Below are positions 3,962-23,057 of a stretch of 23,057 nucleotides of DNA, piece after piece. A program made the translations under genes and the position numbers. The notes below the pieces were generated by a model. It ran no database searches and had not been told where the DNA came from. It saw nothing but the letters and a program-made list of their open reading frames with translations. Origin of the DNA: a virus; IMG/VR virus record IMGVR_UViG_3300042556_003022, positions 1 to 23,057 of that record; one strand, written 5' to 3'. Position 1 is the stretch's first letter; each line of letters begins with the position of its first letter.

Positions 3962-5278
3962 TTAAGCGGCTGTCGCCCTAGGAACCCACCCTGATCCCTG
4001 GACATAGCTTCCCGTTGTGCCGGGGGCGGTGTGTTGAGTCATCTGTCCGTAAGACGAAAACCCTCCTGACCCCCCTCCGGCTCCTGCCATTCCCGCCCCC
4101 ATCAGTGACCCGCCGATGGTGGACGAGGCATTGCTTACGAGTTGCGCGTTGGCAAGCCCCGAAGCCATAGTGCGATTGGCGTTGTTGTAGGCATTTGTGA
4201 GGCCCTGTCCGGCGATGCCGAGTTTGGCATTCGTGCGGGCTTCTGCCGCTGCCGCTTCCGCAGCCGCCACGGCGCGAGCGGTTTCGCTTTCCTGCCCGTA
4301 AACATTGGAGTAGGTCGTGTGGAGGAAGCTCGCCTTGTTCGTGGCAAGATCGAACCGCTTGTCCAGCGCGGTGTTGAGCCCCACCATCTTGTAGTCGAGA
4401 GGCACTTTCTGGGCTTGGAAGAGATTCCAACTGTTCTCGTTGTTGACATCAATGACCTTGTTCACATTGAGCCCCATCCAGTTGTAAACATCATTCATCC
4501 CGACTTGGGTTCCTGCGACCAGCGTGTTGTAGTCTTGAAGCTGACGAGCTTGGAATCTTTCTGCCGCGGCATTCTTTTCTGCGTCAACAGCAAGTCCTAT
4601 GTGGCGAAGTTCCGAGTTCAGTTTGAGCGGGCTTCCTGCCCCTGTTCCGCTTGCCAGCCCCCTCTGCGCGGCGGCTCTAGTAATCGCCGATTCCGTAGTG
4701 GCGGACATGATGCCTTGGGTTCCCTGCAAGTCATTCAGCGCCATCTGCGAACGGGTCTCGTCGAACATCGGGGTCGCCGCTCGGGCCAGGTTCAACCGGA
4801 TTTTCTGGTTCTCCTCGCTCAGACGGGTTGCAAAATCCGCGAAATCATCAAACCTTGAAAGGTTGTAGTCGTAAGTCTGATTCGCCGAATCCTTGATGAG
4901 ATTCTTAGAGCGCGTCTCGTAATCGGCGACATTTTGATCGGCTTTGTCAACGACCCCAGAAACACCTGTAAAGTAATCAGGAAAGTTCCCCAGGGCCTTG
5001 TTGACTTCTTTCCCGTATTGATCCACGAGCTTCCCCGTGCGGTCGATGTAGGTGCCTGAGAGCTTGGGTTGTGTTTTTTCCAACTTCCCGATCGCCGCCA
5101 TCATGTCGCCGTAGCCCCGCTCGGCTTCTGCCGAGGCCAGCTTCATGTATCTATTCGTAGCCGAGGTGGATGAAGCATTGGCCTTCCGCGTGGCGTCGGA
5201 CTGCATGGCCCCTGCTGCGACCGCCCCTCCGGCCACGATCGCCGCGCCCCCAACAACAGCAACAGCTACCATACTCAT
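3962..5278 (-). CDS. Putative internal virion protein (T7 gp14-like position)
   Basis: A 438-residue protein. Residues 3-25 are a hydrophobic Ala/Gly/Val segment that could act as a membrane helix. A long Ala/Gln/Asn-rich helical body follows, with an Ala/Glu-rich coiled coil at about 335-355 and a Gly/Ser-rich C-terminus from about 385. The start overlaps the stop of the upstream cupin gene by four bases (ATGA), indicating translational coupling. The hydrophobic N-terminus, low-complexity helices and flexible glycine-rich tail are typical of small ejection proteins that form a channel across the host envelope (T7 gp14 type). This is inference from architecture and gene order; there is no diagnostic motif. 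A fibre-associated or capsid role is a less likely alternative. Confidence 0.6.
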   Translation of the reverse strand: MSMVAVAVVGGAAIVAGGAVAAGAMQSDATRKANASSTSATNRYMKLASAEAERGYGDMMAAIGKLEKTQPKLSGTYIDRTGKLVDQYGKEVNKALGNFPDYFTGVSGVVDKADQNVADYETRSKNLIKDSANQTYDYNLSRFDDFADFATRLSEENQKIRLNLARAATPMFDETRSQMALNDLQGTQGIMSATTESAITRAAAQRGLASGTGAGSPLKLNSELRHIGLAVDAEKNAAAERFQARQLQDYNTLVAGTQVGMNDVYNWMGLNVNKVIDVNNENSWNLFQAQKVPLDYKMVGLNTALDKRFDLATNKASFLHTTYSNVYGQESETARAVAAAEAAAAEARTNAKLGIAGQGLTNAYNNANRTMASGLANAQLVSNASSTIGGSLMGAGMAGAGGGSGGFSSYGQMTQHTAPGTTGSYVQGSGWVPRATAA

Positions 5279-8327: not shown

Positions 8328-8396
8328 GTCGGGGTCAAGCCCGTTGTCCACATAAGGCGCAAGCGCCTCTTTAGCGGCTTGAAAGCTAGTAGCCAT
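7749..8396 (-). CDS. Adaptor-domain paralogue, one partial and one full unit
   Basis: A 215-residue protein. I choose the ATG at 8396 (MATSFQAAKEAL) over a longer in-frame start at 8462, because GGAGGG lies at a suitable distance upstream and the extra residues lie inside the previous gene. Residues about 24-86 are the C-terminal half of the repeat unit (ARINEAQRRLIDHYNFLSRRE). Residues about 97-213 are a full unit with FVERN (103-107), GLVGRIGLETVARYRLS (134-150) and DHYNFVIRRE (167-176). It overlaps the upstream tail gene by 11 bases. It is likely a virion protein at the head-tail junction, like its two downstream paralogues. No catalytic motif is visible. Confidence 0.65.
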   Translation of the reverse strand: MATSFQAAKEALAPYVDNGLDPDNARVTARINEAQRRLIDHYNFLSRREELEKAALVFAEGGTGGSLILDDLDATKVMILSLWREENNELEMATALEQKALAFVERNLLQSVEYARREEFQGLESAFPITQRDGLVGRIGLETVARYRLSANRLRSYVRQAYRDAVDHYNFVIRREALDRPKIVSNDLPQAVSPLEISPEVVREIVTNQLAQDRA

Positions 8397-8982
8397 AAGC
8401 AAAAACCCTCCATCCTTGAGTAGTTCCTTCGTAGCGCAGCAGTATTTCCCCTGTGGTGTCACAAACGAGGTTCTCCGCCAGCCCGTTAATTAAGCTGGTG
8501 CCTCGCGCCACCGTTAAATTGTTGGTGCCCCATTTTTTCGCGATGTCCGAGATCAGCACCCAATCCAACGCAGCGGGGCTGGCGGGGAGTGTGATTGTGA
8601 ACGCCCCTGCGCCAGTATCCGCTGCAATCCTATCACTCGCAACTGCTGTGTAATTAGCGGTTTTATTGGCCCAAGGGTTCACGCGAACAGACGGTGCGAG
8701 CTTCGCGGATGTCACTGCGCCGTCAGCGATTCCATTCAGCGGCGCAGTGAAATTTTCAAAAGTGATTCCCTCCACCACCGGAACTCCGCCCGCATAAGAA
8801 ACAATGGGGACGATCTTTCCCGAAGGATCGGTCGCCGCCGACCGTTGCCGGAAGATCAGCTTGTCGAGGTTCTCCCCTTTGACTTTTCGCGTTCCGTTTG
8901 CCGAAGTCGCCCAGACCACGAACTGATCGTTCGTTGCGAGGGTTGTGACTTCCGAGAGCCCGTTGATTGTGGAGTTTGCCAT
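8386..8982 (-). CDS. Tail protein with fibre-type C-terminal domain
   Basis: A 198-residue protein. The N-terminal part (about 1-45: NGLSEVTTLATNDQFVVW, then TRKVKGENLDKLI) is of the kind seen at the start of many phage tail proteins. A short DGAVTSAKLAPS linker at 87-98 is common in fibres. The C-terminal domain (about 104-198) begins NKTANYTAVASDRIAADT and ends in a W-R-V-F strand. It matches a beta domain I recognise from the ends of many phage tail fibres and spikes. The start overlaps the nozzle gene stop by one base (TAATG), so the two are coupled. A short fibre, or a fibre anchor attached to the nozzle, is the most likely role. Confidence 0.65.
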   Translation of the reverse strand: MANSTINGLSEVTTLATNDQFVVWATSANGTRKVKGENLDKLIFRQRSAATDPSGKIVPIVSYAGGVPVVEGITFENFTAPLNGIADGAVTSAKLAPSVRVNPWANKTANYTAVASDRIAADTGAGAFTITLPASPAALDWVLISDIAKKWGTNNLTVARGTSLINGLAENLVCDTTGEILLRYEGTTQGWRVFAYGY

Positions 8983-11434: not shown

Positions 11435-11677
11435 TTATCGCTCCATGCCCATCGCCATTGCTTTTTGGAAATCCCCAGTGTCGGGGTCCGTGGCCTCGGC
11501 GTAGGCTTCGTCTTCTTCGGGTTCTTCCGTCTCGCCCTCGCCGCCGACGGGAAGGCCGTCAATCGCGGTGAGCACGAGGTTGTCGCCATCGACTTCCAAA
11601 GTTGCAAGGGCCTCGAAGGTGCCTTTGTCGGCTCCCTCGGGGAGTGTGTAGCCTTCCGGCATCGGGAATTTAATCAT
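11435..11677 (-). CDS. Small acidic protein downstream of the capsid gene, unknown
   Basis: An 80-residue protein. It begins MIKFPMPEGYTLPEG, has a short beta-rich middle (TFEALATLEVDGDNLVLTAIDG), and then a very acidic segment at about 50-65 (GETEEPEEDEAYAE). Similar short proteins with a PEGYTLPEG start directly after the major capsid gene are familiar to me from environmental podoviruses, without known function. It is separated from the capsid gene by an 89-base gap holding a strong hairpin, so its expression probably depends on read-through. No Shine-Dalgarno sequence is visible (CCAACCCAAATG). Confidence 0.6.
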   Translation of the reverse strand: MIKFPMPEGYTLPEGADKGTFEALATLEVDGDNLVLTAIDGLPVGGEGETEEPEEDEAYAEATDPDTGDFQKAMAMGMER

Positions 11678-11709
11678 TTGGGTTGGTCGGGTTTGATGTG
11701 TTGGTCAAA

Positions 11710-11756
11710 CCTCAATTCCGCCCCCTCGCCCTAGGGCAAGGAGGCGGTGTTTGAGG
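11710..11756 (-). terminator. Strong hairpin after the major capsid gene (terminator or mRNA stabiliser)
   Basis: On the minus strand, 11747-11734 pairs with 11731-11718 over 14 positions with two G-U wobbles. An outer CCTCAA/TTGAGG stem (11756-11751 with 11715-11710) extends it. The apex is the palindrome CCCTAGGG (11729-11736). Only a short TTTG follows, so this may be a weak terminator, an attenuator or an mRNA 3'-end stabiliser rather than a full stop. It begins 11 bases after the capsid gene stop. Confidence 0.7.
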
Positions 11757-11766
11757 GCTTACCTAC

Positions 11767-13098
11767 TCAGGGAGCCGGAGGGCAGACAGCGTCGCCGTCG
11801 CAGTCGGTGAGATCGGTTGCACGATCCACGCAACGGAGGTGGCGAACCACGAAGCCCAACTCGGGGCGCTCGACTTTCGAGCCGTAGGCGTAAAGCGCAC
11901 GGAAGAAGCCGGTCGAACCGTCGATGTTGCTCTCGCGGTCAGGGATGTTCCTCCACACGAACTCGCCCGCCCAGCTATAAGATGGGTTGTAGGTCATGCC
12001 GCCCTTGCTTGTGCGGGGCGAAGGAGTGAGGACTTTCATAACATCCTGATGGTAAATCACGGTGTCGGTGTAGGCAGCGGCCTTGTAACGGGCGCTGATC
12101 TCCCAACGCATTCCACGCGAGGTCGCGATTGGCTCGTATGGGAACACACGGACCCAGTCACCAGCAACAGCGTCAAACTCATAGCGAGGAGGAAGCTCCA
12201 CGGTGAAGAATTTGAAACCACGGTAGATGGCGTTCAGCCCTGGGGCCGAAAGCATCGGGTTGCTGTCGCCATTGCCCATGTAGGCATAGCGGAAGTCGTC
12301 GCGGACATTAGCGTCTTGACGCTTCAGATCACTGAAGGTGTAACGCTCGCCGACCGCGGCGTAGATCGGAGTCATCTCGTCCACGCGGGCGAACGGGTTG
12401 ATCGACCCGCCGTTGTATCCGAGTTGCTCGTAAATCGCTTCGAGGATGCCCCAGGTGAGCTTCGAGGTCGCCGGAGTGGCGGCAAAGTCAGCCGTGTTGG
12501 GGTCGAAGTTGACAACCGCCACGGATTTTTGGCCGCAGGCGTTGACATACTCGTCTTGGTAGGTGTTGGTCCAGACATACTTGGTGTTCTCGGAAAGGAC
12601 GCGGATCACATTTTTGACCTGGTCCTCAACCTGCCAAGCGAATTGGAGGTCATCGAGGTTGATGTCGGGGCTGTTGAGAGCCGCCTTTTTGAGGCTCATG
12701 GTGCGAACGGTCACGCCGAAGCTGTCGATCTTTTGACCGACAATTTGGCTTCCGCCGCCGAGCATACCCGTGCGAGGGAGGGCCCCGCCATTGGCTCCAA
12801 CGAGGTTGGAGTTATTCGGGGAAGCGGTGTAGGTGCCGCTCTTGGTGGCGTTGTCGCCATCGCCGCCCGAAGAAGTCCAGTTCTCAAAAATCACGCCACC
12901 TGGAGTCGAGACCGCGGCGCTGGAAAGCGAACGCTCGAAAATGGGGTAGCTGACTGCGTTGCCCTGACCATCCACCCACTTATCTTTGGGAAGATATTTG
13001 AGGTAGAAGTCGGAGGTTACGATGTTCTTCGCGACATTGTTGCGGATGAGACCGCCCCATTCCACGAAGAGTTGTTCGATATTTTGTAGTGCTGCCAT
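11767..13098 (-). CDS. Major capsid protein
   Basis: A 443-residue protein of typical capsid length. It begins MAALQNIEQLFVEWGGLIRN and has a Gly/Ser/Asn-rich region (about 75-112) that could form the extended loop. Mixed alpha/beta segments follow, and the C-terminal part includes AGEFVWRNIPDRESN and a beta-rich ELGFVVRHLRCVD. It comes directly after the scaffolding gene, the usual capsid position. It has its own 237-nt leader with a terminator for the upstream operon and a candidate promoter, consistent with high separate expression. The HK97-type fold is inferred, not seen. Four cysteines lie in the last 30 residues (CVD, DCDGDAVC region), which is unusual and may allow cross-linking or metal binding at the C-terminus. 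The leader is T-rich with no Shine-Dalgarno sequence. Confidence 0.85.
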   Translation of the reverse strand: MAALQNIEQLFVEWGGLIRNNVAKNIVTSDFYLKYLPKDKWVDGQGNAVSYPIFERSLSSAAVSTPGGVIFENWTSSGGDGDNATKSGTYTASPNNSNLVGANGGALPRTGMLGGGSQIVGQKIDSFGVTVRTMSLKKAALNSPDINLDDLQFAWQVEDQVKNVIRVLSENTKYVWTNTYQDEYVNACGQKSVAVVNFDPNTADFAATPATSKLTWGILEAIYEQLGYNGGSINPFARVDEMTPIYAAVGERYTFSDLKRQDANVRDDFRYAYMGNGDSNPMLSAPGLNAIYRGFKFFTVELPPRYEFDAVAGDWVRVFPYEPIATSRGMRWEISARYKAAAYTDTVIYHQDVMKVLTPSPRTSKGGMTYNPSYSWAGEFVWRNIPDRESNIDGSTGFFRALYAYGSKVERPELGFVVRHLRCVDRATDLTDCDGDAVCPPAP

Positions 13099-13131
13099 AA
13101 AAATAGAAAAAACAGAAAGGTTGTGTTGTGA

Positions 13132-13252
13132 GGTTATTACGCCTCGTTTGTTTTTTCCGTGCGGGGGTCGGATTACACGCAGTAATGTTCATGCAGTTAC
13201 CGCCTGCAAGTAGCGTCGGGAATGTAATAACCCTGCAACCCTGCAAAGTCAA
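13132..13252 (-). promoter_or_regulatory. Major capsid gene promoter candidate and structured leader
   Basis: On the minus strand TTGACT (13252-13247) and TATTAC (13229-13224) are separated by 17 bases, a plausible sigma70-like promoter. The spacer contains a direct repeat of TGCAGGGT. The downstream leader of about 115 nt holds several short inverted repeats of TTAC/GTAA, such as ATTAC-ACGCA-GTAAT (13172-13186). It also has two copies of TAATAACC in opposite orientation (13225-13232 on plus, 13132-13139 on minus). No protein-coding content is apparent here. Confidence 0.5.
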
Positions 13253-13283
13253 TAGACAATTTTCAAAGAGTTGCGAAAAAGAA

Positions 13284-13316
13284 AAACCCCACAGAGACCG
13301 AGTCCCTGTGGGGTTT
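13284..13316 (-). terminator. Rho-independent terminator after the scaffolding gene
   Basis: AAACCCCACAG (13284-13294) and CTGTGGGGTTT (13306-13316) form a perfect 11-bp stem with an 11-nt loop. On the minus strand the stem is followed by TTTTTCTTTTTC. It lies about 20 bases after the scaffolding gene stop and before the candidate capsid promoter. No U-tract follows on the plus strand, so it acts on the minus-strand transcript. Confidence 0.9.
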
Positions 13317-13335
13317 GGGGAGGGGGAAGCTACGA

Positions 13336-14568
13336 TCAGCGCAGATTGGCTTTCAGCGCCGACATGAAATCCTCGAACTCCTCTTTGGCTGGGGCCGCTG
13401 GGGCGCTGCCGCCTCCGCCCGCCTTGGGGGTAGCTTTCTGGTATTTCTCCAGGGACTTCTCAAGTTCCTGATAGCGATTGTAGAGCGAAACGAACTGGCC
13501 GTAGATGACAGGAGCCACCGCGGAGCGGTAGGCCACACGGGCGCGGGAATCCTCGTTGAGGCCGTCGAAGTCGAGTTCGCGAACAAACTTTTCCGCTCCG
13601 GCGAGTTGCCCGTTCCACTCATCGTCGCCGTCGATCGGGCGCAGGAGCGGCACGGCCTGTCGGCCCTCCTCGATGACCTTGTCCACCACGCTGTTGTATC
13701 GCTTGCCGTATTCTTCCTTTTGGTGTTTGGACTGCTCCTCGCGGTGTTGTTCGATTTTTTCGAGGGCGAGCTTGGCGTTGTTCACCACTTTCTGTCGGGT
13801 GCCTTGCACCTTGGCAAAGCGGGTCTCCAAGTCGTAAAGGGTGAATTTATCGCGGTCGTTCATTCCCGCCGCAAGATCGCTGAGTTTGTCGGCGCGGGCG
13901 CTGGCGTCGGACTCGGCGAAGGCATTGACGATGTCGGCTTCCACAATCTCGTATTTCGAGGCGATCTGGCTGATCGACTCGCGGATTGCTTGCATGGGGG
14001 CGACCACGGCGTCCTTGAACTCCTTGGTGGCTTCGACACGGGCGACTTGAAGCTCCCGCTCGTATTCCTCGTTGAGTTGGCGAAGTCGCTGAACCTCCTC
14101 GGGGTTGGTCTCGGATTTGGCTTTTTCAAGATCGGCGAGTCGGGATTCCAGCGCAGCGGCTTTTTCCCGCTCGGCCTTGAGGTCCTTTCGCATTGCGGCG
14201 AAGGCGTTCTTCGCATTCTCGCTGGCGTTCTCTAGCCCTTTTTCCTCGGTAGGTTCAGCAGGAGTCTCATCCTTTTTCGGGGCGGACTTTCTCCCGCGTA
14301 ACTTGGCGAGGTCGTCCGAGGTGGGGACTTTAATCTCCTTCTCCTCGGGCTTGCCTGGCTCGCCCTCGGGGCCTTTCTCCCCAGAGTGGTTTGTGGGCCC
14401 TGTCGGCTCAGTTTCGATCGGCGCGTCGGGGGCGGCATCGCCGTCTTTGAGCTTGGCGAAAGCATCCGCGATACTCGCGGCGGCGTCGAAGCTCATCATT
14501 CCTCCCTTGCCTTGGGGTTCCCCTTCAGGCGCGGGCGTTGTCTGTGTGGTTTCGTTGGTGTCTGACAT
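13336..14568 (-). CDS. Scaffolding protein (capsid assembly)
   Basis: A 410-residue, highly charged, largely helical protein immediately upstream of the major capsid gene. The N-terminal about 110 residues are disordered and rich in Pro, Glu, Gly and Thr. A coiled coil follows (about 120-180, rich in Glu, Arg and Lys, e.g. KAEREKAAALESRLADLEKA), then helical segments. A flexible GGGGSAPAAPAKEE linker leads to a short amphipathic C-terminal helix (EFEDFMSALKANLR). That tail is the typical capsid-binding end of podovirus scaffolding proteins. The role is to direct procapsid assembly and leave before or during packaging. GAGG lies about 11 bases before the ATG, one of the few possible ribosome-binding sites here. 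Confidence 0.8.
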   Translation of the reverse strand: MSDTNETTQTTPAPEGEPQGKGGMMSFDAAASIADAFAKLKDGDAAPDAPIETEPTGPTNHSGEKGPEGEPGKPEEKEIKVPTSDDLAKLRGRKSAPKKDETPAEPTEEKGLENASENAKNAFAAMRKDLKAEREKAAALESRLADLEKAKSETNPEEVQRLRQLNEEYERELQVARVEATKEFKDAVVAPMQAIRESISQIASKYEIVEADIVNAFAESDASARADKLSDLAAGMNDRDKFTLYDLETRFAKVQGTRQKVVNNAKLALEKIEQHREEQSKHQKEEYGKRYNSVVDKVIEEGRQAVPLLRPIDGDDEWNGQLAGAEKFVRELDFDGLNEDSRARVAYRSAVAPVIYGQFVSLYNRYQELEKSLEKYQKATPKAGGGGSAPAAPAKEEFEDFMSALKANLR

Positions 14569-14571
14569 AAA

Positions 14572-14859
14572 TCAATCCTCGGGTTCGAGGGTGGGCATGA
14601 GGTCGTTATCGCTCTTGCGGGGTTTGGTTGGCACGCCGAGGGCGAGTAGCGCGTCGATCGCTTGGTTGAAGCCCTCGAAGCGGGTGTTCTGGTGGCTGTT
14701 CCATTCAGAAAACCCCACGCCGGTCGGCGGAGCGATCTCCCTGGGGCACCCCAAATGGCGCAACGCCTCGACGGCGGCTTTCATCTCAGGGCGTTTCAAT
14801 AGGTCGGCGAAGGCGCTGGTCAGCACCTCGCTGGATCGGAAGGTTTCAATCGTGGTCAT
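14572..14859 (-). CDS. Small phage protein, unknown
   Basis: A 95-residue, mainly helical protein. It contains FADLLKRPEMKAAVEALRHL and then a SEWNSHQNTRFEGFNQAIDA segment. The latter resembles a short pattern found in small proteins encoded next to podovirus scaffolding genes, but I cannot assign a family firmly. Its ATG overlaps the stop of the upstream gene by four bases, and it ends a few bases before the scaffolding gene. A CCCTGGGG motif at 14749 forces a Pro-Arg pair with an AGG codon. Confidence 0.6.
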   Translation of the reverse strand: MTTIETFRSSEVLTSAFADLLKRPEMKAAVEALRHLGCPREIAPPTGVGFSEWNSHQNTRFEGFNQAIDALLALGVPTKPRKSDNDLMPTLEPED

Positions 14860-15338
14860 GGTGAGTCGTAGGCTTCGACATTCACGGAGGCGTCACCCGT
14901 GAAGGTCATCACATAGATAAACGCGACATTGTTCCCGTCGCTGTCCGCCACCGGAGTTGCGGTGATGGCAGTGCTCGGGAGCATATTGATCGCGGCGGTT
15001 TGGTCGGGGGCGAGATACACGCCGACCGCGTAAGAGGCGGTGCTGCTGGCCGTGTCGTCGATCAAAACCTCATGGGTGTAGGTTCCAGGCTCGTCGATCG
15101 TTTTTACATAGGCCGCGTCGGCGCGGGCGATCACCACCCTAGGGAGGATTCCCACGGAGGAAACTTCACGGGTCGCGGTGCTGGTAAACCCGATCGCCAC
15201 CGTCTTCGCCATCGGGTCTTCCCGCTTCACCCACTCCAACTTTCCATTGCGGGCAGCGAGTTGATAAAACCCATCGGCCTGCGGCTTCGGGATCACCGTG
15301 AAATTCTTCGTGAACGGATTGAAAAGAAAGCGGCCCAT
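14856..15338 (-). CDS. Possible beta-rich structural protein, unknown
   Basis: A 160-residue protein. A short N-terminal section (about 1-40) includes RFLFNPFTKNFTVIPKPQ. The rest is beta-rich with many Thr, Ala and Val residues (VAIGFTSTATREVSSVGILP, ASSTASYAVGVYLA), resembling a small beta-sandwich. An internal ATG at residue 43 (MAKTVAIGF) is an alternative start. The ATG at 15338 follows the upstream stop immediately (TAAATG), which supports the longer form. The location between portal and scaffold suggests a minor virion or decoration protein. I do not recognise it. Confidence 0.5.
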   Translation of the reverse strand: MGRFLFNPFTKNFTVIPKPQADGFYQLAARNGKLEWVKREDPMAKTVAIGFTSTATREVSSVGILPRVVIARADAAYVKTIDEPGTYTHEVLIDDTASSTASYAVGVYLAPDQTAAINMLPSTAITATPVADSDGNNVAFIYVMTFTGDASVNVEAYDSP

Positions 15339-15575
15339 TTACCATTTCCCTTTCGGGCATTTGGAGGTTTCGAGAACGAGTTTGGCCTTGGTCGAGCAAC
15401 CGCAGACCGTGCATTTGCCGGAGCCGCCCCACGCTTTCGAGTTCCAAAACAGACACGCTTGGCACTGCTCGAAACGCTTCGTGATGACTTCTCCCGAGGC
15501 GAGCTTGAAGCCTTTCTTGGCCCACTTCGCAGTCTCAGTGAGCAAACTTTTTGCCTTATCCAGCGCGGTCGGCAT
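15339..15575 (-). CDS. Small zinc-ribbon-like protein
   Basis: A 78-residue protein with six cysteines arranged as C38-x2-C41, C55-x2-C58-x-C60 and C73, in the pattern QCQAC, KCTVCGC, SKCP. This suggests a zinc ribbon. The CGCSTKAKLVLETSKCP-KGKW ending is one I recall from small proteins encoded near structural genes in environmental podoviruses. The function is unknown; a DNA- or protein-binding adaptor is possible. The ATG directly follows the HNH-like gene stop (TAAATG), so translation is probably coupled. Confidence 0.65.
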   Translation of the reverse strand: MPTALDKAKSLLTETAKWAKKGFKLASGEVITKRFEQCQACLFWNSKAWGGSGKCTVCGCSTKAKLVLETSKCPKGKW

Positions 15576-15794
15576 TTATTTCAATGAGCGATTGATCTTG
15601 GCCCGCAGGGCTTGCAGGTTGCCAGGGTTGTTGTTGAGCGGGTTGCCGTCCTTGTGGTGGACATCCATCCCGTCGCCTTTCTTCACACGGCCCTCTGACG
15701 CCAGCTTTCGCCGAGCGGCGTTGCGATTCGCCCGTTTCTTCTTCTGATCGGGGCGGGCGTGGTAGTTGTCGTATTCGGATCGGTAGTCTCTCAT
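15576..15794 (-). CDS. Small HNH-like protein
   Basis: A 72-residue, very basic protein. The C-terminal half, MDVHHKDGNPLNNNPGNLQ (from residue 43), carries the H-H-x-D-G-N-x-x-N-N pattern of HNH endonucleases. The leading zinc-binding half of larger HNH enzymes is missing or replaced by a Lys/Arg-rich helix. Such short HNH-like proteins are common beside phage packaging or head genes, where some nick DNA to help terminase. Here it follows the portal with a four-base overlap. Whether it is catalytic cannot be decided from sequence; it could be an accessory packaging nuclease or a degraded homing nuclease. Confidence 0.65.
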   Translation of the reverse strand: MRDYRSEYDNYHARPDQKKKRANRNAARRKLASEGRVKKGDGMDVHHKDGNPLNNNPGNLQALRAKINRSLK

Positions 15795-18121
15795 GGTTGC
15801 GGGATGCTGGCTGCGGTCGTGGCACGAATCTTGGCGGCGGCTTTGGCGTCTTCCAAAGCGAGCTTCTGAGCGGTCTGCGCGTCCTTCATTTGCAGGTCGG
15901 CTTGGTGCTTCTCGATTTTCATTTGAAGCTCGGCGCGGCGCTCCATGAGGCGTTGCTGGGCTTCGGGGCTCAACTGCTCGGACTCGGCGAGCTTCTTCTG
16001 CATTGCCTGATACTCAGCCATGAGCGCGGTCTGTTGGCGCTCGGCTTCTGCTTGTTGGGCTTTCTGCTGGTTCTCCTGCATCGCCTGCAATTCGTCGGCG
16101 AGGCGTTGGGCGCTCGCGGTGAGTTGCTGGTGTCGCTGGCGCATAAGGGCGACTTGGTCTTTGCGGACGAGGTCGCTGCCAAGTTGAGCCAAATGCTCGC
16201 CTAGGTGCGGAAGGAACATTTGGAAGGCACTCAATGCCTCCATCGGGTTGCTTGCTCCCTCGGCCACGGCGCGATCGAGTTGATCCACCGCATTGAGGTG
16301 GGTGGAGGCGTGGATGAAATGGTTCTCCCCAGGGCTCACGGGGATCGGGCTTCCCGAGGACATCGTCGCGTTCTCCAAGACTGCAATCTTGAAATCCAAC
16401 GGCGGGCGCAGCGTTGTCTGCGGGGCTGGGATGTAGCGGTCCACGACTTCCTGCCCGAACCGCGCTGCCACTCGGTCGCGGAGGAGGTTGATGCGTCCCA
16501 TTTCATCAAGGCTTCCGAAGATCGACATGGTTTCGTCGATCGCCGCCATACGCATCGCGGGGCTTCCGTAGCCGATCGCTCGCACGGGCTCGACATTGAT
16601 GACGCGGTGAATCGCTTCCTCGGGCACTCCGCGTTTGAGAAGGCGTTTGCGGAACTCAACGGCTTCCTTGCCGCCTGGTTCGCGAGCGTTGTAATCGCGG
16701 CGGGTGAGACGGCGGAAGACCTCGGTGAGAATGCGCTTCCAAGGATGGTAGAACAAATTGATCGAGGCGTTGGACAGCACGGCTTCTTTCTGCAACTGCG
16801 CCTTCACCTCGTAGGCGGTGCGGGCTTGGTTGCTGTCGCCCGTGTTGGCGCGGGTCTGGTAGGCCCCCGTGTTGTTGCTCATCTGCATCGCCATGTCGTT
16901 GATGACGGGGATGATGTTCTGTTGTAAATTCGGCACGGCTTTATCCACGATCTTCAAGCCAGGCGGGAAGAGGGCGTAGGGGCCGTAGTAGGTGAGCGTC
17001 AGGTCATCGAGAGCGCGGGTGCTGCTATCGCTTGGCTGCACGATGAGCGAGGAGGAGAGGAGCGCCCCATCCACCATGCCGCAACGCAGGCGGTTCAGCA
17101 CTTGAATGTGCGGGTAGATTTTGAAGCCCAGCCCGCGGATGCCGTGGTAGGTGCCGTTACCGACGCCGTAGGTGAAAGTCACCCAGCACTGCGTCGGGGA
17201 GTCGAACCGCTTTTCTTTTCGATAAAGAAAACTCTCCTTCATCGCGCCGACATCGGTGGGGAGTGGCTCTTGCAGGAAAATCAAATGCGAGACGCACCCG
17301 CAAAATTCCTTCACCCACATATGAACGACCTTCACGACCTTGCTCTTGGCAGTTCCGTAAAGGATGTCGTTGTTTTTTAGCTCTACCTCCAGTTTCTCCC
17401 AGTCCCCTAGGGAGGTTGTGGTGTCTTGGGCGCAAGCCCGCTTCAGGGCTTCTTTTACCGTGGCAACATCCCACCCCAGAGAGGCGGCGATCTCGGGGTC
17501 GCGAATAAATCCGTAAAGCTCGTCGGAGCGGTATTCGCGGTCCACCGTAGCGACTTCGATCTCGGCCTCGCTGGCTCGTGTGCCTCGGGGGATGCGAAAT
17601 TCATTGAGCCCCGTTACGCGCCAACGCCAATCGAGTTCGTCCTCGAAATACGCGACACCGACACCATGGGTCACAAAAAAATCCGAGAGTCGCTGGTGGT
17701 TAAATTCAAACTCGCTCCATCCACGCAGGGTGCGGTGGAACTCCTCGCCGATGATTTCGCTCCACTCGGCGGCTTGCTCGGGGCTTCCGTAGGTGGTGCG
17801 AACGCGGGCGAGCATATCGACCGAGTTCGTCAAGTCGTAGTAGCCTGCGAGGGCTTGATCCTTGAGCGCGGCAGCTTCGCCAAAATCCAAATTCGTGCGC
17901 TCCCCCTGCCCGACTTCTTTGAGGTCGTTGGCGTTGAAAGGCGGGGCTCCGTTGAACATCCCGTCGATCAGAGCGCGGTTGCGGCTGCTGCCCTCGTCGG
18001 CTTTTTTGAGCGAGAGGTAAATCGAGCGGGCGGCGTCCACATCGCCCACGCGGGCGCAAGGGGCTTCGCCGGTCACGGGGTCAAGCCCCTTCAGTTCAAG
18101 CGGAGAGTGGTTCAGGTTCAT
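15791..18121 (-). CDS. Portal protein
   Basis: I choose the ATG at 18121 (MNLNHSPLELKGLDPVTGEA), giving 776 residues, over an in-frame start at 18178 whose extra residues overlap the upstream gene. The length and order of elements fit the large podovirus portals. A helical N-terminus is followed by a beta-rich clip and wing region and a central stem-like stretch (LQQNIIPVINDMAMQMSNNTG) with a YHPWKRILTEVF helix after it. The last about 120 residues are a Gln/Ala/Glu-rich coiled coil, matching the barrel extension seen in some portals. The portal forms the dodecameric ring through which DNA enters and leaves. It overlaps the upstream gene by 26 bases and the downstream gene by four. Confidence 0.85.
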   Translation of the reverse strand: MNLNHSPLELKGLDPVTGEAPCARVGDVDAARSIYLSLKKADEGSSRNRALIDGMFNGAPPFNANDLKEVGQGERTNLDFGEAAALKDQALAGYYDLTNSVDMLARVRTTYGSPEQAAEWSEIIGEEFHRTLRGWSEFEFNHQRLSDFFVTHGVGVAYFEDELDWRWRVTGLNEFRIPRGTRASEAEIEVATVDREYRSDELYGFIRDPEIAASLGWDVATVKEALKRACAQDTTTSLGDWEKLEVELKNNDILYGTAKSKVVKVVHMWVKEFCGCVSHLIFLQEPLPTDVGAMKESFLYRKEKRFDSPTQCWVTFTYGVGNGTYHGIRGLGFKIYPHIQVLNRLRCGMVDGALLSSSLIVQPSDSSTRALDDLTLTYYGPYALFPPGLKIVDKAVPNLQQNIIPVINDMAMQMSNNTGAYQTRANTGDSNQARTAYEVKAQLQKEAVLSNASINLFYHPWKRILTEVFRRLTRRDYNAREPGGKEAVEFRKRLLKRGVPEEAIHRVINVEPVRAIGYGSPAMRMAAIDETMSIFGSLDEMGRINLLRDRVAARFGQEVVDRYIPAPQTTLRPPLDFKIAVLENATMSSGSPIPVSPGENHFIHASTHLNAVDQLDRAVAEGASNPMEALSAFQMFLPHLGEHLAQLGSDLVRKDQVALMRQRHQQLTASAQRLADELQAMQENQQKAQQAEAERQQTALMAEYQAMQKKLAESEQLSPEAQQRLMERRAELQMKIEKHQADLQMKDAQTAQKLALEDAKAAAKIRATTAASIPQP

Positions 18122-18863
18122 CAGTCTTTTTCTTTGCCGGTTTGGGCTTGGGGTTGAGGATTTCGAGCACCGAGCCATCGGCGACTCCGGCGATCACGGC
18201 GGTCTGTGGGGCGATTGGTTCGGCGTTCACGCCAGGGGCTTCTTTGAAAAAATACTTTCCATCCGCGCCGCCGCGGTATTCGGAGGTGCCTGCTTGGTTT
18301 TGGATCAGCTTTGAGACTGCCGAATCACGGCGCATCTCGAATCGCATTTGCACATTCCACGGCGTCTCCTTCGGGCCGTAGCCCAAGCGGCGGATCAGGG
18401 TGGATCGCAGATAAAGATCGGGCGGGTAGATCGAGGAGGCGATGATCCGCGGGGGTTCCTGCCGCATCTTTCCTGTGGCAGGGTCGCGCTCCACGCTTGG
18501 CTCCATGGCTCCGAGGTAGGGCATCTTCGCGACGAAATACTCCTTCGCAATCTCCGTTAGCCACGAAGGGCGCAGAGGGCAACAAGTCTCGTCGAACCAA
18601 TACCACGGGTCGGTGCAGCCCATGAGGTCGAGGTAGTGCGCCGTGTCGTGAAAGAGCTTGTTGCGTGAGTTGTAAACATGGTCGCCCGTGAAAATGTCCG
18701 CATTCGCAAAAGCTCCCTTCAAAAGGTTGAGCGCCTTCTCGATCTCAGCGACATCGCGGTTCCCTCCGACTAGCAAGGCATCGTGCATCGCCACGCCCCC
18801 CAGGGAGAAGATGTGCTGATACAGAGGGAGGGCTTTTTGCGAGAACGGAATGACAAGCAACAT
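18096..18863 (-). CDS. Glycosyltransferase-like phage protein
   Basis: A 255-residue protein. It opens with a MLLVIPFSQK beta strand, followed by HDALLVGGNRD, as in nucleotide-sugar-binding folds. Later it contains WYWFDETCCPLRPSWLTEI (about 87-105), in which an acidic residue after an aromatic strand resembles the D-x-D region of GT-A glycosyltransferases. The C-terminal about 50 residues are Pro/Lys-rich and flexible. I recall similar proteins upstream of portals in environmental podoviruses, but their role is unknown. DNA or capsid sugar modification is possible. A CCCCAGGG motif lies at 18798. Two TAATAACC copies precede the start. A non-enzymatic structural role is the alternative. Confidence 0.5.
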   Translation of the reverse strand: MLLVIPFSQKALPLYQHIFSLGGVAMHDALLVGGNRDVAEIEKALNLLKGAFANADIFTGDHVYNSRNKLFHDTAHYLDLMGCTDPWYWFDETCCPLRPSWLTEIAKEYFVAKMPYLGAMEPSVERDPATGKMRQEPPRIIASSIYPPDLYLRSTLIRRLGYGPKETPWNVQMRFEMRRDSAVSKLIQNQAGTSEYRGGADGKYFFKEAPGVNAEPIAPQTAVIAGVADGSVLEILNPKPKPAKKKTDEPEPLSA

Positions 18864-18864
18864 G

Positions 18865-18888
18865 GGTTATTATTCTACAAGGTTATTA
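18865..18888 (-). promoter_or_regulatory. Direct repeat of TAATAACC before the portal operon
   Basis: On the minus strand TAATAACC occurs twice, at 18888-18881 and 18872-18865, 16 bases apart, directly before the ATG at 18863. TTGAAA lies 17 bases upstream of the first TAATAA. TAGAAT lies between the copies as an alternative -10 box. If TAGAAT were used the mRNA would be almost leaderless. No Shine-Dalgarno sequence is present. The element is likely a phage promoter or operator, by position and recurrence. Confidence 0.4.
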
Positions 18889-19173
18889 ACAACCGGCAAC
18901 CAATTTTTCAAAAACTTTATCGGCATTTTCATGGGCGTCTTCAATTTCCTCCACCGTGGGCTCATCGAGGTCGGGCTGGCAGGCGTGGGTTACTTCATGC
19001 CGCAGAGTGGCTTTCATGTTGAACTGCGGGTTCAGATAGATCGTCCGTTGGGCGTAGTCGCACAGCCCGTGAAGGGGATTCCAACGCCCATCTTTCTTAA
19101 TCGGCGCAAGGCGCTTGATTTCGATTTTCCACCACTTTCCACGGATGCGAACCTTGCCGGAGGTCTTTTTCAC
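18886..19173 (-). CDS. SprT-like small zinc metallopeptidase
   Basis: A 95-residue protein with H59-E60-V-T-H63 (ATLRHEVTHACQPDLDE), the HExxH zinc motif, followed by EEIEDA (75-80), a plausible third ligand region. The pattern KVRIRGKWWKIEI, GLCDYAQRTIYLNP, LRHEVTHA is one I recognise from short SprT-like phage proteins. I place the start at a GTG at 19173, whose GTGA overlaps the stop of the upstream HTH gene by four bases. The ATG at 19233 would overlap that gene by 64 bases and adds a non-conserved stretch. A role in protein turnover or in removing DNA-protein crosslinks is possible, but unknown in phages of this type. Confidence 0.7.
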   Translation of the reverse strand: MKKTSGKVRIRGKWWKIEIKRLAPIKKDGRWNPLHGLCDYAQRTIYLNPQFNMKATLRHEVTHACQPDLDEPTVEEIEDAHENADKVFEKLVAGC

Positions 19174-19592
19174 ACTGCGAGAATCTTTTTTGTGGAACTC
19201 CCCTGGGGCGTGCTGATGCGTCCGTTCGCCCACTCAATGCGTCCGCCAGAAATCACAACCCCCGTTTCAGTGCCGTCATACCGGCGCACCTGGGTTCCCA
19301 CAGGGAAAGGCCAGCGCCCAGGCTTGCTTTTCGTCGGGGCTGCTTCCGCAGGTTTGCGAGAGCTAATCGAATAGCATTGTATTGTGACCACCTTACCTTC
19401 AATCGCATCCCAGATTGGAAATTTGTCCACCAGCACATCTTTGGCTTTGATGGCGGAGCGAAGGTTTTCATTGACGCGGCTTTCTGCACATCCGATTTTC
19501 TCGGCGACTTGGGCTCGGGTCAGCCATCCTTCGGGGACGGGTTTGACGCTTTTGGCTTTGTGTTTAACGACGAGTGCTTTCCAAGGATTCAT
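19170..19592 (-). CDS. HTH DNA-binding protein, possible small terminase or regulator
   Basis: A 140-residue protein. Residues about 22-65 (GWLTRAQVAEKIGCAESRVN, then IWDAI) fit a helix-turn-helix of the winged or MerR/excisionase-like type. A Pro/Lys linker follows. Residues about 93-138 (FPVGTQVRRYDGTETGVVIS) look like a small beta barrel. It lies between a metallophosphoesterase and the SprT-like gene, upstream of the portal, where a small terminase subunit is often found. A transcription regulator is an equal possibility. The start at 19592 is preceded by AACCTACAACCTATG with no Shine-Dalgarno sequence. Confidence 0.55.
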   Translation of the reverse strand: MNPWKALVVKHKAKSVKPVPEGWLTRAQVAEKIGCAESRVNENLRSAIKAKDVLVDKFPIWDAIEGKVVTIQCYSISSRKPAEAAPTKSKPGRWPFPVGTQVRRYDGTETGVVISGGRIEWANGRISTPQGSSTKKILAV

Positions 19593-19602
19593 AGGTTGTA
19601 GG

Positions 19603-20640
19603 TTAATCTTCTAAAAAGATGGGCCAGGTGCCGGTGCGTCCGCGCTTCGCATTGAAAAGAAAGAGCGTCTGCTGTGGTGGCTCATAGGGAGCCTTGATGG
19701 CGATACTGTAAGCGTTGTGGCCGATGAGACTCCCGTTCGATACCCACTTCGGATTCTGTTGGCTTTGATGCCAATGTCCGAAAATATCGAGGTCCGCCAC
19801 GCGGCCTTTGTTCCAGTTGGAAATCGCCTTTTCTACGGGTATGGTCAACCCGCCCACGCCCCCTTGGAACTTCAATCCATCCCCATGATGCAGGCGGAAG
19901 GTCTTGCCATAGACATCGAGGTAGGTGTGATATGATTCCCCAATCACCCATGTCACCCCGTCGGTGATCTCCTGCTCCAAGATTTTGTAAAGGAGCCATT
20001 CGTAAGAGTTCTTCCAACTCGTGCCATGGCGCGGCTTGATCGTCGTGCGCCCGTGGTTGCCGACCGAGCAAGGGATGATGATGTGGTCGAAGTTCCCCTC
20101 TTTTCGGAAGGTGTTGATGAATTTCGCCACGCGCTCCTTGAGCCACAGAACAGTCTGCGTGGGAGTGAGTTCGTTCTCCTCTCGCAATTCCTCGTGAATA
20201 AAACCGGACATCAAATCGCCCAAAAGAGCGAGAATACAAATCGGGATGTCGCAGCCGCCGCGCTGGATTTCAAGGAGTCGGATCGCCGACTTGGCAAACC
20301 GCTCGATGCGTTGATCGGCGACCTCCAAGTTAAAAGTGTTGAGGTGCGAGACCGTGCGCGGATCGACCGATTCCTCGCAGTGCCAATCACTCGCCACCAC
20401 CACCGCCGCGGATTCCGTGGAGGATTTGCCTTTGCGCTCGATGGCGTAGGTGCGGTTGCCCGAGGGGGATTCCTTTAGCAGGGACGCGACATCCATGCTG
20501 GCGCTCAACTCTTCGATCGCTTGCTGGTAGCTTGCGATTTGTTTTTTCAGGTCGTCCACCTCGGAGCGGTGGGCGCGAGTCGTGGAGGAGCGTTCAATCT
20601 CCTGCCACACATTGTTAGCTGCGGGTTGTTTTTTTGGCAT
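19603..20640 (-). CDS. Metallophosphoesterase (calcineurin-like)
   Basis: I choose the ATG at 20640 (MPKKQPAANN), giving 345 residues; a longer start at 20727 would run into the endolysin gene. All metal-binding motifs are visible: D85-x-H87 (ASDWHCEE), G141-D142 (LLGDLMSG), G194-N195-H196-G-R, H251-H252-G-D and G288-H289-W-H291. Residues about 23-57 are a coiled coil. Such enzymes hydrolyse phosphomono- or diesters using two metals, and phage members include nucleases and phosphatases of unknown target. The gene is four bases after the endolysin and ten before the HTH gene, an unusual place within a lysis-packaging block. The substrate is unknown: DNA repair or processing, RNA or nucleotide-signal cleavage are all possible. 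Confidence 0.8.
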   Translation of the reverse strand: MPKKQPAANNVWQEIERSSTTRAHRSEVDDLKKQIASYQQAIEELSASMDVASLLKESPSGNRTYAIERKGKSSTESAAVVVASDWHCEESVDPRTVSHLNTFNLEVADQRIERFAKSAIRLLEIQRGGCDIPICILALLGDLMSGFIHEELREENELTPTQTVLWLKERVAKFINTFRKEGNFDHIIIPCSVGNHGRTTIKPRHGTSWKNSYEWLLYKILEQEITDGVTWVIGESYHTYLDVYGKTFRLHHGDGLKFQGGVGGLTIPVEKAISNWNKGRVADLDIFGHWHQSQQNPKWVSNGSLIGHNAYSIAIKAPYEPPQQTLFLFNAKRGRTGTWPIFLED

Positions 20641-20644
20641 AAAT

Positions 20645-21229
20645 TCAAGCCCTAGGGCGGGTCGCCTCGAAGTGCATACTATCGTATCCCCAAAAGGCTC
20701 CGGCGCTTTGCCAGCCTTCGCGGGCAAAAGCCTCCATGATCTCTAGGGGCATATCGGCCTTCAAAGGCCAGGTGTCTCGAAAAGTGTTGTCGTCGGCATC
20801 GAGGTCGATTGCCGCCCCCCAAGCATGGACAGAAAACGAGTTTCCGCCGCGTTTTTGTCGAAAGTTGAAGATACCGCCGTAGTCCTCGGCCTCTTCCATG
20901 ACCTCGCGATCTTTGCCGTGCAGGCTCCCGATCGCTTGGAGAACCCGTGTCAGGGAGGGCGCGACCTTCAAATGGCAGCGGGATTTTTTGACGGGCTTCC
21001 CGCCGTAATACATGGGGAATGGAAACTCGATCGTGACAAGGTTCGATTCATCCCCAGGTTCGCCATAGAACTCACGGAGCGCCGCTTGCGTGGAGTGCGG
21101 CCATGGGTTCGGGCTTGGCATGAGCGAGCGAAGATGCTCGCGGCAACGGGCCTGGGACTTGGGGCCCCAGAACCCGTCCGGCACGACGCCGATCCGGCGC
21201 TGCATCCGTTGGATTTGATCGCTCGTCAC
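20645..21229 (-). CDS. Endolysin, M15-type D-Ala-D-Ala / L-Ala-D-Glu peptidase
   Basis: A 194-residue protein. An N-terminal segment (about 1-60, QIQRMQRRIGVVPDGFWGPK) resembles half a peptidoglycan-binding domain. The peptidase part has S133-x-H135-x-x-G-x-A-x-D142 (SFSVHAWGAAIDLD) and a second zinc histidine in DSMHFEA (H186). This is the M15/VanY-type metallopeptidase signature. It would cut peptide cross-links of the host cell wall at the end of infection. No signal peptide is visible, so it depends on a holin, and the holin-like gene overlaps its ATG by four bases. The last residues include a CCT-AGG codon pair from a CCCTAGGG copy at 20650. Confidence 0.85.
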   Translation of the reverse strand: MTSDQIQRMQRRIGVVPDGFWGPKSQARCREHLRSLMPSPNPWPHSTQAALREFYGEPGDESNLVTIEFPFPMYYGGKPVKKSRCHLKVAPSLTRVLQAIGSLHGKDREVMEEAEDYGGIFNFRQKRGGNSFSVHAWGAAIDLDADDNTFRDTWPLKADMPLEIMEAFAREGWQSAGAFWGYDSMHFEATRPRA

Positions 21230-21399
21230 TTACCCTTGCGGATAATGTTGATGATGCCAACAAGCGAGAGGCCCGCGGCGACGATTTGATTCTGAAGCTC
21301 TGGCTCCAAACGAAGCCCTAGGGCCGTGACGACGAGGATGACCCCGCGCCAAGTGGAATTTTCACTAAGCCGTTCGATGACGATGTTTACGATTTTCAT
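21226..21399 (-). CDS. Holin-like small membrane protein
   Basis: A 57-residue protein. I choose the ATG at 21399 (MKIVNIVIERLSENST), which overlaps the upstream lipoprotein stop by four bases (ATGA). A longer frame opening at 21600 is an artefact of overlap with that gene. Two hydrophobic segments are visible, about 17-30 (WRGVILVVTALGL) and 39-53 (IVAAGLSLVGIINII), with a basic RKGK tail. This matches a class II-type holin shape, and the STWRGVILVVTALG opening is one I associate with small phage holin-like proteins. Its location next to spanin-like genes and the endolysin supports that role. Confidence 0.65.
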   Translation of the reverse strand: MKIVNIVIERLSENSTWRGVILVVTALGLRLEPELQNQIVAAGLSLVGIINIIRKGK

Positions 21400-21620
21400 T
21401 TGTCTTTTAGCAGTTTGGGTTGCGTTAAGCCGAATTGCTCCCATGCAAATTGCATGGAATCGCTCGGCGGTCGTTCGGGGGAGGATTTGGGCTCGTAAGC
21501 GACCACGACGCTGAGTTTGAGGTTGCCTAACTCCCCTACCCGATCGCCAATCGGCGGGATGGGGATGCTGACACAGCCGGTTAATACTAATGTGATACAA
21601 AATAGTAGGACTTTACTCAT
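21396..21620 (-). CDS. Lipoprotein, o-spanin-like
   Basis: A 74-residue protein with a signal peptide ending in a lipobox, L13-T-G-C16 (LVLTGC). The mature part is about 59 residues and begins with a Pro/Ile-rich segment (IPIPPIGD). A small lipoprotein directly downstream of a membrane/coiled-coil protein, overlapping it by four bases, fits the o-spanin (Rz1-type) of a two-component spanin, which would imply a Gram-negative host. The mature part is less proline-rich than many o-spanins, so the call is based mainly on context. Confidence 0.6.
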   Translation of the reverse strand: MSKVLLFCITLVLTGCVSIPIPPIGDRVGELGNLKLSVVVAYEPKSSPERPPSDSMQFAWEQFGLTQPKLLKDK

Positions 21621-21859
21621 TTGCGTTCGAGTGTGCGGATGCGGTTTTCGTGGTCGTTGAGGATATTATCGTGCCTAGCGTCCGTTACGGCGTTCTGCTC
21701 CATGCGGATAAGGACAGCCTCGATCTTCTCGATTCGCGTGTTTGCTGCTGTAAACTCTTCCTTCGTCACAAACTTGGTGCCGAGGAGAGCCACAGCGAGG
21801 AGGGCGACCGTTGTGGCGATTTTGAGGCCGAAATCAAAATGTTTGCCGATGTCGCTCAT
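21617..21859 (-). CDS. Inner-membrane coiled-coil protein, i-spanin-like
   Basis: An 80-residue protein. One membrane helix lies at about 11-31 (GLKIATTVALLAVALLG). A charged coiled coil follows (EEFTAANTRIEKIEAVLI, then NDHENRIRTLERK). This is the i-spanin layout. A holin or anti-holin with a soluble tail cannot be excluded. Its ATG overlaps the upstream stop by four bases and its stop overlaps the lipoprotein start. With these neighbours the four genes form a complete lysis cassette. Confidence 0.55.
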   Translation of the reverse strand: MSDIGKHFDFGLKIATTVALLAVALLGTKFVTKEEFTAANTRIEKIEAVLIRMEQNAVTDARHDNILNDHENRIRTLERK

Positions 21860-22044
21860 TGCTCAGAAGGTATTAAAAAACGCCTTGCCTCAGTTTCAGA
21901 ATCAAACCAATACCATCCGTCTACTGGATATGTATATTCATCGTGCGTTTCTTTGTATAGTTCAAAATTTTTGTTTAATACAAAATTTGGCCCACAAATT
22001 AACTCACCGTTTTCTTCTTTATAAAATCCAGATGTGTTTTCCAT
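21856..22044 (-). CDS. Small fibre-associated protein, unknown
   Basis: A 62-residue protein. I choose the ATG at 22044 (MENTSGFYKEENGEL), four bases after the fibre gene stop; the ATG at 22110 would overlap that gene by 62 bases. The segment PNFVLNKNFELYKETHDEYT and the following YPVDGWYWFDSETEA are of a type I recall from small proteins next to tail-fibre genes in marine podoviruses and myoviruses. The function is unknown; a fibre chaperone or short fibre component is possible. The region is AT-rich like the fibre gene, suggesting that the two moved together. Confidence 0.6.
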   Translation of the reverse strand: MENTSGFYKEENGELICGPNFVLNKNFELYKETHDEYTYPVDGWYWFDSETEARRFLIPSEQ

Positions 22045-22048
22045 AAAA

Positions 22049-23057
22049 TTATCCAGTAACAGTCCAATTTTTTGCTGTGGCAATTGCAATGTCATCGCTG
22101 GCTGTGCCATAGTTGCTTGTGACAGTTATAGTTTGTGTTGGTAGTGAGGTTAAATTAGCTAAATTGGTGTAAATCTCGTTAAGATTATTTGGACTAAGAG
22201 TGGAGGCTAAAAATGAAACAGTGCTTTTTATTCCGGTTGCCCTGCAACGCTTGAGTGCCTGACAAGTTGCAGCAAAAGAAGCCATGTTTGTTGCGCTGGA
22301 GCAATTAAAGGCTGGAATGCTTTGAAGTGAAACGCAATTTTGAAACATACTGCTCATATTTGTCACGAGCGCAGTATTAAACAACGGAACACTTTGAAGC
22401 GATGTGCAGTTTTGAAACATGATACTCATGTTTAATACCAGCGAGGTATTAAACAAGGGGACGCTCTGAAGTGAAACGCAACTTTGAAACATACCACTCA
22501 TGTTTGTAGCAGCCGCAGTATTAAATAGAGGAACACTTTGGAGCGATGAGCAGCCACTAAGCATACCATTTATGTTTGGCACATTAGAAAGATCAAATAG
22601 AGGAACGCTGCGAAGCGAGGCACAACCTAAAAACATACTACCAACGGTGTTTGCTGGCGAGATGTTAAACAAAGGAACACTTTGGAGCGCAGAGCAATTT
22701 TGAAATAGATTGGCTAAACCTGTTGCTTTATGTGATAAAATAGTGCATTGTTCTAGCAACCTTAAATTCCCTGTTGTCCCTCCAATTAGTAGTGTAGTGC
22801 AATTTGGAGCCGATAGAGTAATTTCAAGAATTGGTGTTGTATATTGTGTTGCATTAACTGATGTGTGCTTGAAATTGAACTGAATAAGTGTAAGATTTTG
22901 TCCCGCTTGCGGAGTTATGACAATCATTGCCTGCCGCATTTTAGAACCAACAGGCCCAATTTCTGTTGATGCCGAGAGATTACTAAACACATAGTTATGT
23001 TGCGCTGTGACATTACTTGCAACATTTTCAATAAAACCATCGCCCCAATCAACTGTG
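22049..23057 (-). CDS. Tail-fibre-like protein with BspA-type leucine-rich repeats (5' end beyond window)
   Basis: The frame has no stop from the right edge to 22049. A GTG at 22990 is in frame but is probably not the start, because VDWGDGFIE (just inside the edge) and NYVFSN upstream of or at it match the PKD-like W-G-D-G ... Y region that precedes such repeats. From residue 98 of that GTG frame there are six tandem 24-residue repeats of the type NC-x-S-L-Q-S-V-P-L-F-N-T ... N-M-x-x-M-F-Q. The C-terminus ends IATAKNWTVTG. BspA/DUF285-type repeats occur in bacterial surface adhesins and in phage fibres. Here it is likely the receptor-binding part. It is clearly AT-rich compared with the rest, suggesting separate acquisition. 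Confidence 0.75.
   Translation of the reverse strand, partial: TVDWGDGFIENVASNVTAQHNYVFSNLSASTEIGPVGSKMRQAMIVITPQAGQNLTLIQFNFKHTSVNATQYTTPILEITLSAPNCTTLLIGGTTGNLRLLEQCTILSHKATGLANLFQNCSALQSVPLFNISPANTVGSMFLGCASLRSVPLFDLSNVPNINGMLSGCSSLQSVPLFNTAAATNMSGMFQSCVSLQSVPLFNTSLVLNMSIMFQNCTSLQSVPLFNTALVTNMSSMFQNCVSLQSIPAFNCSSATNMASFAATCQALKRCRATGIKSTVSFLASTLSPNNLNEIYTNLANLTSLPTQTITVTSNYGTASDDIAIATAKNWTVTG
22268..22699 (-). repeat. Six tandem 72-bp coding repeats (BspA-type LRR)
   Basis: Six consecutive 24-codon units lie in the fibre-like gene, 432 bp in total. The unit is marked by Cys near its start, SLQSVPLFN and N-M-x-x-M-F-Q. Neighbouring units share runs such as GGAACACTTTG and TTGAAACATA on the plus strand, so copy number could change by recombination. 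Confidence 0.85.

Follow-up and report, generated by a model that had tools for sequence, protein, structure and literature searches.

Results

Genes at the right-hand end of the window

The stretch of DNA analysed here (the window) is a virus record of 23,057 bases, a fragment. A gene for a repeat protein, assigned here to the tip of a tail fibre, occupies its right-hand end. This gene, its parts and the genes that follow it are listed below.

22049..23057, minus strand: tail-fibre tip gene (DUF285/PARCEL repeat protein), from the ORF list, matches to PF03382 and TIGR02167 and position in relatives
23036..23056, minus strand: TVDWGDG motif of the N-terminal domain of the tip, from the translation, aligned with relatives L003 and L106
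22274..22705, minus strand: six tandem 24-aa (72-nt) repeats of the tip, residues 118-261
22049..22273, minus strand: C-terminal region of the tip, a degenerate seventh unit and a cap (…QTITVTSNYG…AKNWTVTG), from alignment
21856..22044, minus strand: 62-aa gene paired with the tip, proposed to assist its assembly or to cap it, from co-occurrence with tips
21617..21859, minus strand: putative holin of 80 aa (one hydrophobic stretch, a coiled coil), at the fixed right-hand border of the exchanged cassette
21396..21620, minus strand: 74-aa putative lipoprotein, probably spanin-like by position and signal, from the ORF list
20645..21229, minus strand: endolysin (Peptidase_M15_4, 1.4e-08; phrog_17001, 3.6e-26)
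19603..20697, minus strand: phrog_284 'exonuclease', the anchor used to fetch same-backbone phages

The end of the virus record truncates the tip gene on its 5' side. The window encodes 335 residues of the protein, and by alignment with the tip of L003 about 67 N-terminal residues are missing. An initial annotation, made from the letters of the window, had noticed a W-G-D-G-type domain before the repeats. This domain was confirmed: DWGDG forms residues 3-7, and the remaining N-terminal domain lies beyond the contig end. The degenerate seventh unit starts at residue 262, and the C-terminal region was aligned as common to the window tip, L003 and L106. The gene had also been described as AT-rich, and its G+C content is indeed 40.3%, against 56.8% for window positions 1-21616. 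Low G+C is not peculiar to the window phage, because the tips of L003, L004 and L106 have 40-41% in loci of 55-58%.

A complete tip gene is present in both L003 and L004. In L003 it belongs to the tail-fibre cluster, where a 'Phage tail tip' gene immediately precedes it and lysis genes follow. Upstream are a collagen-like gene (with tail and tail-fibre phrog matches), a tail collar protein (PF07484, 3e-17), a tail assembly chaperone (PF16778, 2.2e-21) and, after the chaperone, a second collagen-like gene and an unmatched 390-aa gene. The tip starts 2 nt after a gene of 112 aa whose product has the 'Phage tail tip domain' (PF24243, 5.9e-11). The genes downstream encode a 62-aa protein, an 80-aa putative holin, a lipoprotein-like protein and an amidase endolysin. 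The same kind of order follows the tip in the window (62-aa gene, 80-aa protein, lipoprotein-like gene, M15 endolysin), where the 74-aa putative lipoprotein matched no Pfam or PHROG family. The tip was located at the distal end of the tail-fibre cluster in L003, L023 and L027-L030. The window ends inside the tip gene, and the fibre position first suggested for it is borne out through the tail-fibre tip slot of these relatives.

A second window protein resembles phage tail or tail-fibre families (phrog_9648, 5.4e-06; phrog_972, 3e-05). It is encoded at 8386-8982 on the minus strand, far from the tip gene, and by eye its C-terminal part resembles the end of collagen-like fibre proteins.

The gene might instead encode a surface or secreted protein of the infected or lysogenic cell that is not part of the virion, acting for example in adhesion or superinfection exclusion. 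Similar repeat regions are common in bacterial genomes: a search of genome contigs gave bacterial repeat proteins and no host or prophage among the best 79 of 480 confirmed loci. The paper that defined PARCEL repeats describes membrane-associated proteins (PMC2996958), and one L003 gene may encode an integrase (PF00589, 26.9 bits, slightly under the cut-off of 27.1). However, no alignment among those 79 bacterial loci starts before query residue 89, so the N-terminal domain is unmatched there, and no signal peptide is apparent by eye at the N-terminus of L003 or L106. The gene also directly follows tail-fibre genes and is swapped one-for-one with other fibre-tip-like proteins. We consider a cellular surface protein very unlikely and treat the gene below as a fibre tip.

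Repeat array and family membership

Six 72-bp tandem repeats with a conserved Cys had been reported for the gene, and self-matching, Tandem Repeats Finder and alignment all recovered them. Each of the six units is exactly 24 aa, in register, with Cys at unit position 4 in all. Self-matches of the window tip protein peaked at lag 24 (94 identities) and lag 48 (69), and the highest peak in 1,000 shuffles over lags 5-59 was 44, against the 94 at lag 24. Tandem Repeats Finder gave a 72-nt period with 3.2 copies and a 144-nt period with 2.1 copies.

The window tip matched Pfam DUF285 (PF03382; 1.1e-28, 99.9 bits, cut-off 25) and NCBIfam TIGR02167 'PARCEL' (2.3e-16, 59.1 bits, cut-off 30). Its six 24-aa units have the tandem arrangement and conserved core of the ~25-aa units that characterise DUF285/PARCEL. 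Membership of Pfam LRR_5 (PF13306, the BspA model) was rejected, as the window tip gave no match at E <= 0.1; LRR_5 was also absent from the matches of the L003 tip at E <= 0.01. A sister tip, L023, matched both DUF285 and LRR_5. A simple dyad count, where the PARCEL paper used MEME, revealed no excess of PARCEL-like palindromes in the window array, and the periodic score was reached by 169 of 1,000 synonymous shuffles and 744 of 1,000 column-permuted arrays.

Predicted fold

The best PDB sequence matches of the window tip were the BspA-like LRR proteins 4fs7 (3e-11) and 4gt6. The full-length L003 tip was modelled with AF2 as a monomer (mean pLDDT 87.4, pTM 0.85, repeats mostly >88); fibre tips are often trimers. 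The best solved relative of the model was 4fs7 (Z 21.1, rmsd 3.7, 325 residues aligned), with other LRR proteins closely behind, so the L003 tip is predicted to be an LRR-type solenoid. Foldseek against the PDB gave E 3.8e-06 with a low whole-model TM (0.29 for 4fs7). The best match in a viral structure library was a 'Bacterial surface protein 26-residue repeat' of an uncultured phage (6.3e-30).

The initial annotation had seen the repeats as a possible receptor-binding scaffold and had suggested structure prediction of the complete protein. The prediction, run on the full-length relative, agrees with a scaffold of LRR type. The accompanying 'BspA-type' name is fair as a fold label, given the predicted BspA-like LRR solenoid, and inexact as a family label, the family being DUF285/PARCEL with no LRR_5 match.

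Variation in repeat number

The tip has five repeats in L106, six in the window and eight in L003 and L004. The differences are exact multiples of 24 aa, and the N- and C-terminal domains are common to L106, the window and L003. Repeats 3 and 4 of L003 differ at 12 sites. Window repeat 3 agrees with L003 repeat 3 at six 5' sites (unit positions 4-13) and with L003 repeat 4 at five 3' sites (36-68), and one of the 12 sites matches neither. This hybrid make-up of window repeat 3 is the signature of crossing-over between adjacent repeats, regardless of which allele came first.

In 95 loci, which encode 76 distinct proteins with a domain of the DWGDG type, 5 to 18 repeats were counted by a strict pattern that undercounts degenerate units; one search for relatives used the best 79 of 351 confirmed loci. 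L144 and L147, from different metagenomes, had no mismatch in 4,004 aligned bases, flanks included, and differed by one 144-nt gap. The gap corresponds to two repeats, each at most 89% like any other. L157 and L158 agreed at 4,383 of 4,385 bases, with one 72-nt gap. The N-domains of L157, L158, L161 and L162 are at least 96% identical, and their arrays have 14, 13, 16 and 18 repeats, respectively. Array length is not always changing, since many close tip pairs have arrays of equal length (e.g. L151/L155, L137/L138 and L198/L201).

All contigs are metagenomic assemblies, and collapse or chimerism in short-read metagenomes could produce spurious differences in repeat number. L157 and L158 differ by a repeat that duplicates its neighbour exactly over 72 nt, and the length difference of this pair could reflect assembly collapse. 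In the L144/L147 and window/L003 comparisons, however, the arrays differ by repeats of distinct sequence, in frame and in exact 24-aa multiples; exact homology at the L144/L147 junction is only 7 nt. An artefactual origin of the differences is therefore extremely improbable. The whole-unit changes, and a junction visible inside a repeat, agree with the original proposal that array length can change by recombination. When repeat numbers were compared among relatives, as had been recommended, the repeats proved not to be invariant in number and sequence.

Exchange of whole tips at one slot

Same-backbone phages, fetched via the exonuclease gene of the window, were 88-94% identical to it over 2.4-10.1 kb of DNA. 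Their similarity to the window stops at 21859-21863 in L027-L030 and at 21620 in L023-L026, at the border with the putative holin. Ten contigs with at least 88% backbone identity show the tip past that border. The slot contains a divergent DUF285 tip (31% to P0001) in L023-L026, an LRR_4 protein in L027, a Gly_rich_2 protein fused to the adaptor in L028, PATR proteins in L029, L030 and L094, and in L096 a protein that clusters with L094. The 48 tips found upstream of the holin family fell into 17 blastp clusters (53 loci with a holin match underlie this set, some contigs being counted twice). In this slot, unrelated tips take the place of whole tips and their small partners. This exchange, a source of variation larger than repeat number, was missed by the initial annotation.

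The other border is seen in L003 and L004. They are identical from near the tip start to the end of the available DNA (from about 5800, >7 kb), with 1,356 of 1,359 bases of the tip gene identical, and their upstream fibre genes have chance-level similarity. This pattern marks a sharp recombination border at the tip start.

Two fibre tips occur in one phage in L099 (4673-8003). A glycine-rich tip and its 56-aa partner lie before the putative holin, and after the holin there is a second fibre gene whose terminal LRR tip resembles the one in L027. A C-terminal cap common to the DUF285 tip and the L027 LRR tip was suspected by eye and dropped, the best BLASTP E being 0.87.

A fibre protein of the virion could also serve as a length-setting spacer or decoration, with repeat number tuning reach rather than specificity and another protein binding the receptor. 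Array length varies between N- and C-terminal domains that stay the same, and the repeat cores are highly conserved, as would suit a spacer. However, in 635 distinct units, collected with a search pattern that itself fixed several conserved or core positions, unit positions 2, 3, 5, 8, 22 and 23 were the most variable, at 2.7 bits or more each. The gene also comes last in the fibre cluster, and proteins of entirely different fold replace its product, a pattern that would be expected for receptor binding. A spacer role appears rather unlikely, and we favour a receptor-binding tip.

The 62-aa partner gene

A relative of the 62-aa partner was found in 89 of 291 loci. It is present in 80 of 94 DUF285-tip loci and lies within -4 to 42 nt of the tip stop in 79 of these; the distance of 4163 nt in L204 arose because the script took another ORF. 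Six of the 14 tip loci that lack the partner end inside the tip gene (open 3'). In a tip-independent sample (L023-L134; 112 loci, some contigs twice), the partner occurred in 10 of 11 DUF285-tip loci and in none of 101 others. Other tip classes have a small gene in the same place, of 68 aa with LRR tips, 56 aa with glycine-rich tips and 69-84 aa with PATR tips.

A search with the partner profile gave 423 confirmed loci, of which 80 were used and 79 examined upstream. This sample is not neutral, as it consists of the loci closest to a profile built from DUF285-tip loci. Eight loci had less than 300 nt upstream. By script, the gene before the partner had at least four periodic repeats in 64 of the remaining 71 and lacked them in seven. 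By eye, L309, L327, L341 and L368 among these seven resemble short or divergent DUF285 tips, and L347 is unexplained. In L333 and L335 the partner is preceded by a tip ORF that looks out of frame, which may reflect a frameshift or an assembly error in the repeat array.

The partner was assessed by profile and structure as a candidate tail-fibre chaperone (Tfa/gp38-like). Its window copy had no Pfam or PHROG match. For the family, a few of 47 members gave matches, all weak (best E 0.0045 and 0.0056). The partner matched no PDB sequence at E <= 1 and no annotated phage record at E <= 0.01. The partner alignment, A3, holds 46 of 60 distinct relatives. An AF2 model from 47 sequences predicted a confident small alpha/beta fold (pLDDT 92.8), for which Foldseek found no PDB match (best E 4.2). 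In L151 (2887-3285), L169 (6501-6914) and L015 (7104-7712) the partner is fused to a C-terminal extension, giving proteins of 133-203 aa; the extensions had no Pfam match. The partner may act in assembly of the tip or as its cap, a role that we liken to that of the fibre-chaperone modules common to unrelated Alteromonas phages (PMC10579305).

Discussion

The tip gene very probably encodes a distal, exchangeable tail-fibre tip that changes both by repeat number and by swapping of tip and partner. We propose that the N-terminal domain, with its DWGDG motif, docks on the preceding 'Phage tail tip' adaptor, that the six DUF285/PARCEL repeats stack into an LRR-like solenoid exposing variable residues, and that the C-terminal cap closes this solenoid. 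The order outward would be adaptor, tip, receptor. The array would gain or lose 24-aa units by recombination between repeats with the frame kept, and whole tips would be swapped with their partners at fixed borders. The tip protein is probably carried in the virion and may bind a host surface receptor, and both array length and tip exchange may alter host range.

A wider reading, for which we see an even chance, is that uncultured phages carry a two-gene cassette, composed of a recombining, length-tunable PARCEL-LRR receptor-binding tip and a dedicated 62-aa assembly or capping partner of an undescribed family, that is interchangeable with LRR, glycine-rich and PATR cassettes. As all these cassettes would fit one common adaptor beside the holin, one lineage could diversify by tip folds and by repeat number.

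The exchange of fibre modules is well known. No report of the tip role, of unit-wise length change or of the partner gene was found in the literature searched, which included few subscription papers. DUF285/PARCEL repeats have appeared in listings for years, and the literature found assigns them no role in phages. The tip locus gives them a testable one: a fibre tip that could lengthen or shorten without loss of frame. The fixed slot with interchangeable tip-partner pairs in near-identical phages is a natural experiment that may link tip fold and repeat number to host choice. The 62-aa partner adds a small new protein family whose fold is predicted with confidence.

Comparison with known systems

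No near relatives among annotated phages were found by megablast of window positions 11500-20800. The window protein matched 76 annotated phage records and the L003 protein 124, all at less than 60% identity and none with coverage of 80% or more. Distant relatives in Klebsiella phage ST16-OXA48phi5.4 and Synechococcus S-CBWM1 are labelled tail proteins.

Roske et al. (2010, PMC2996958) defined PARCEL repeats in bacteria and eukaryotes, and the available text of that paper mentions phages solely in a reference title. The window tip resembles PARCEL proteins in profile family, tandem arrays of ~25 aa, patchy distribution, and conserved hydrophobic and variable hydrophilic positions. Unlike them as described there, it has a phage tip context, N- and C-terminal domains of its own, a partner gene and a 24-aa unit, and its array has no dyad-symmetry excess by the simple count. 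The solved structures nearest to the L003 tip model, 4fs7 and 4gt6, are BspA-type LRR surface proteins; they are bacterial, whereas the window tip has no Pfam LRR_5 match.

DUF285/PARCEL and 'BspA family' repeats were reported in ORF 200 and ORF 287 of Vibrio jumbo phage pir03 in 2020, in a paper which stated that PARCEL had been undescribed in phages until then (PMC7765460). In the available text no role or fibre position is given for either ORF. ORF 200 is 19 kb long, and no difference in G+C from the genome is reported there, unlike the window tip. In the giant virus AaV, the DUF285 proteins AaV_052 and AaV_382 are listed in purified particles (PMC7507832); AaV is an algal giant virus and not a tailed phage. 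In Alteromonas phages, host-recognition modules of a fibre and its cognate chaperone are also common to otherwise unrelated phages (PMC10579305). The fibre type differs from that described here, where a 62-aa partner without a convincing family accompanies a repeat tip of changing length.
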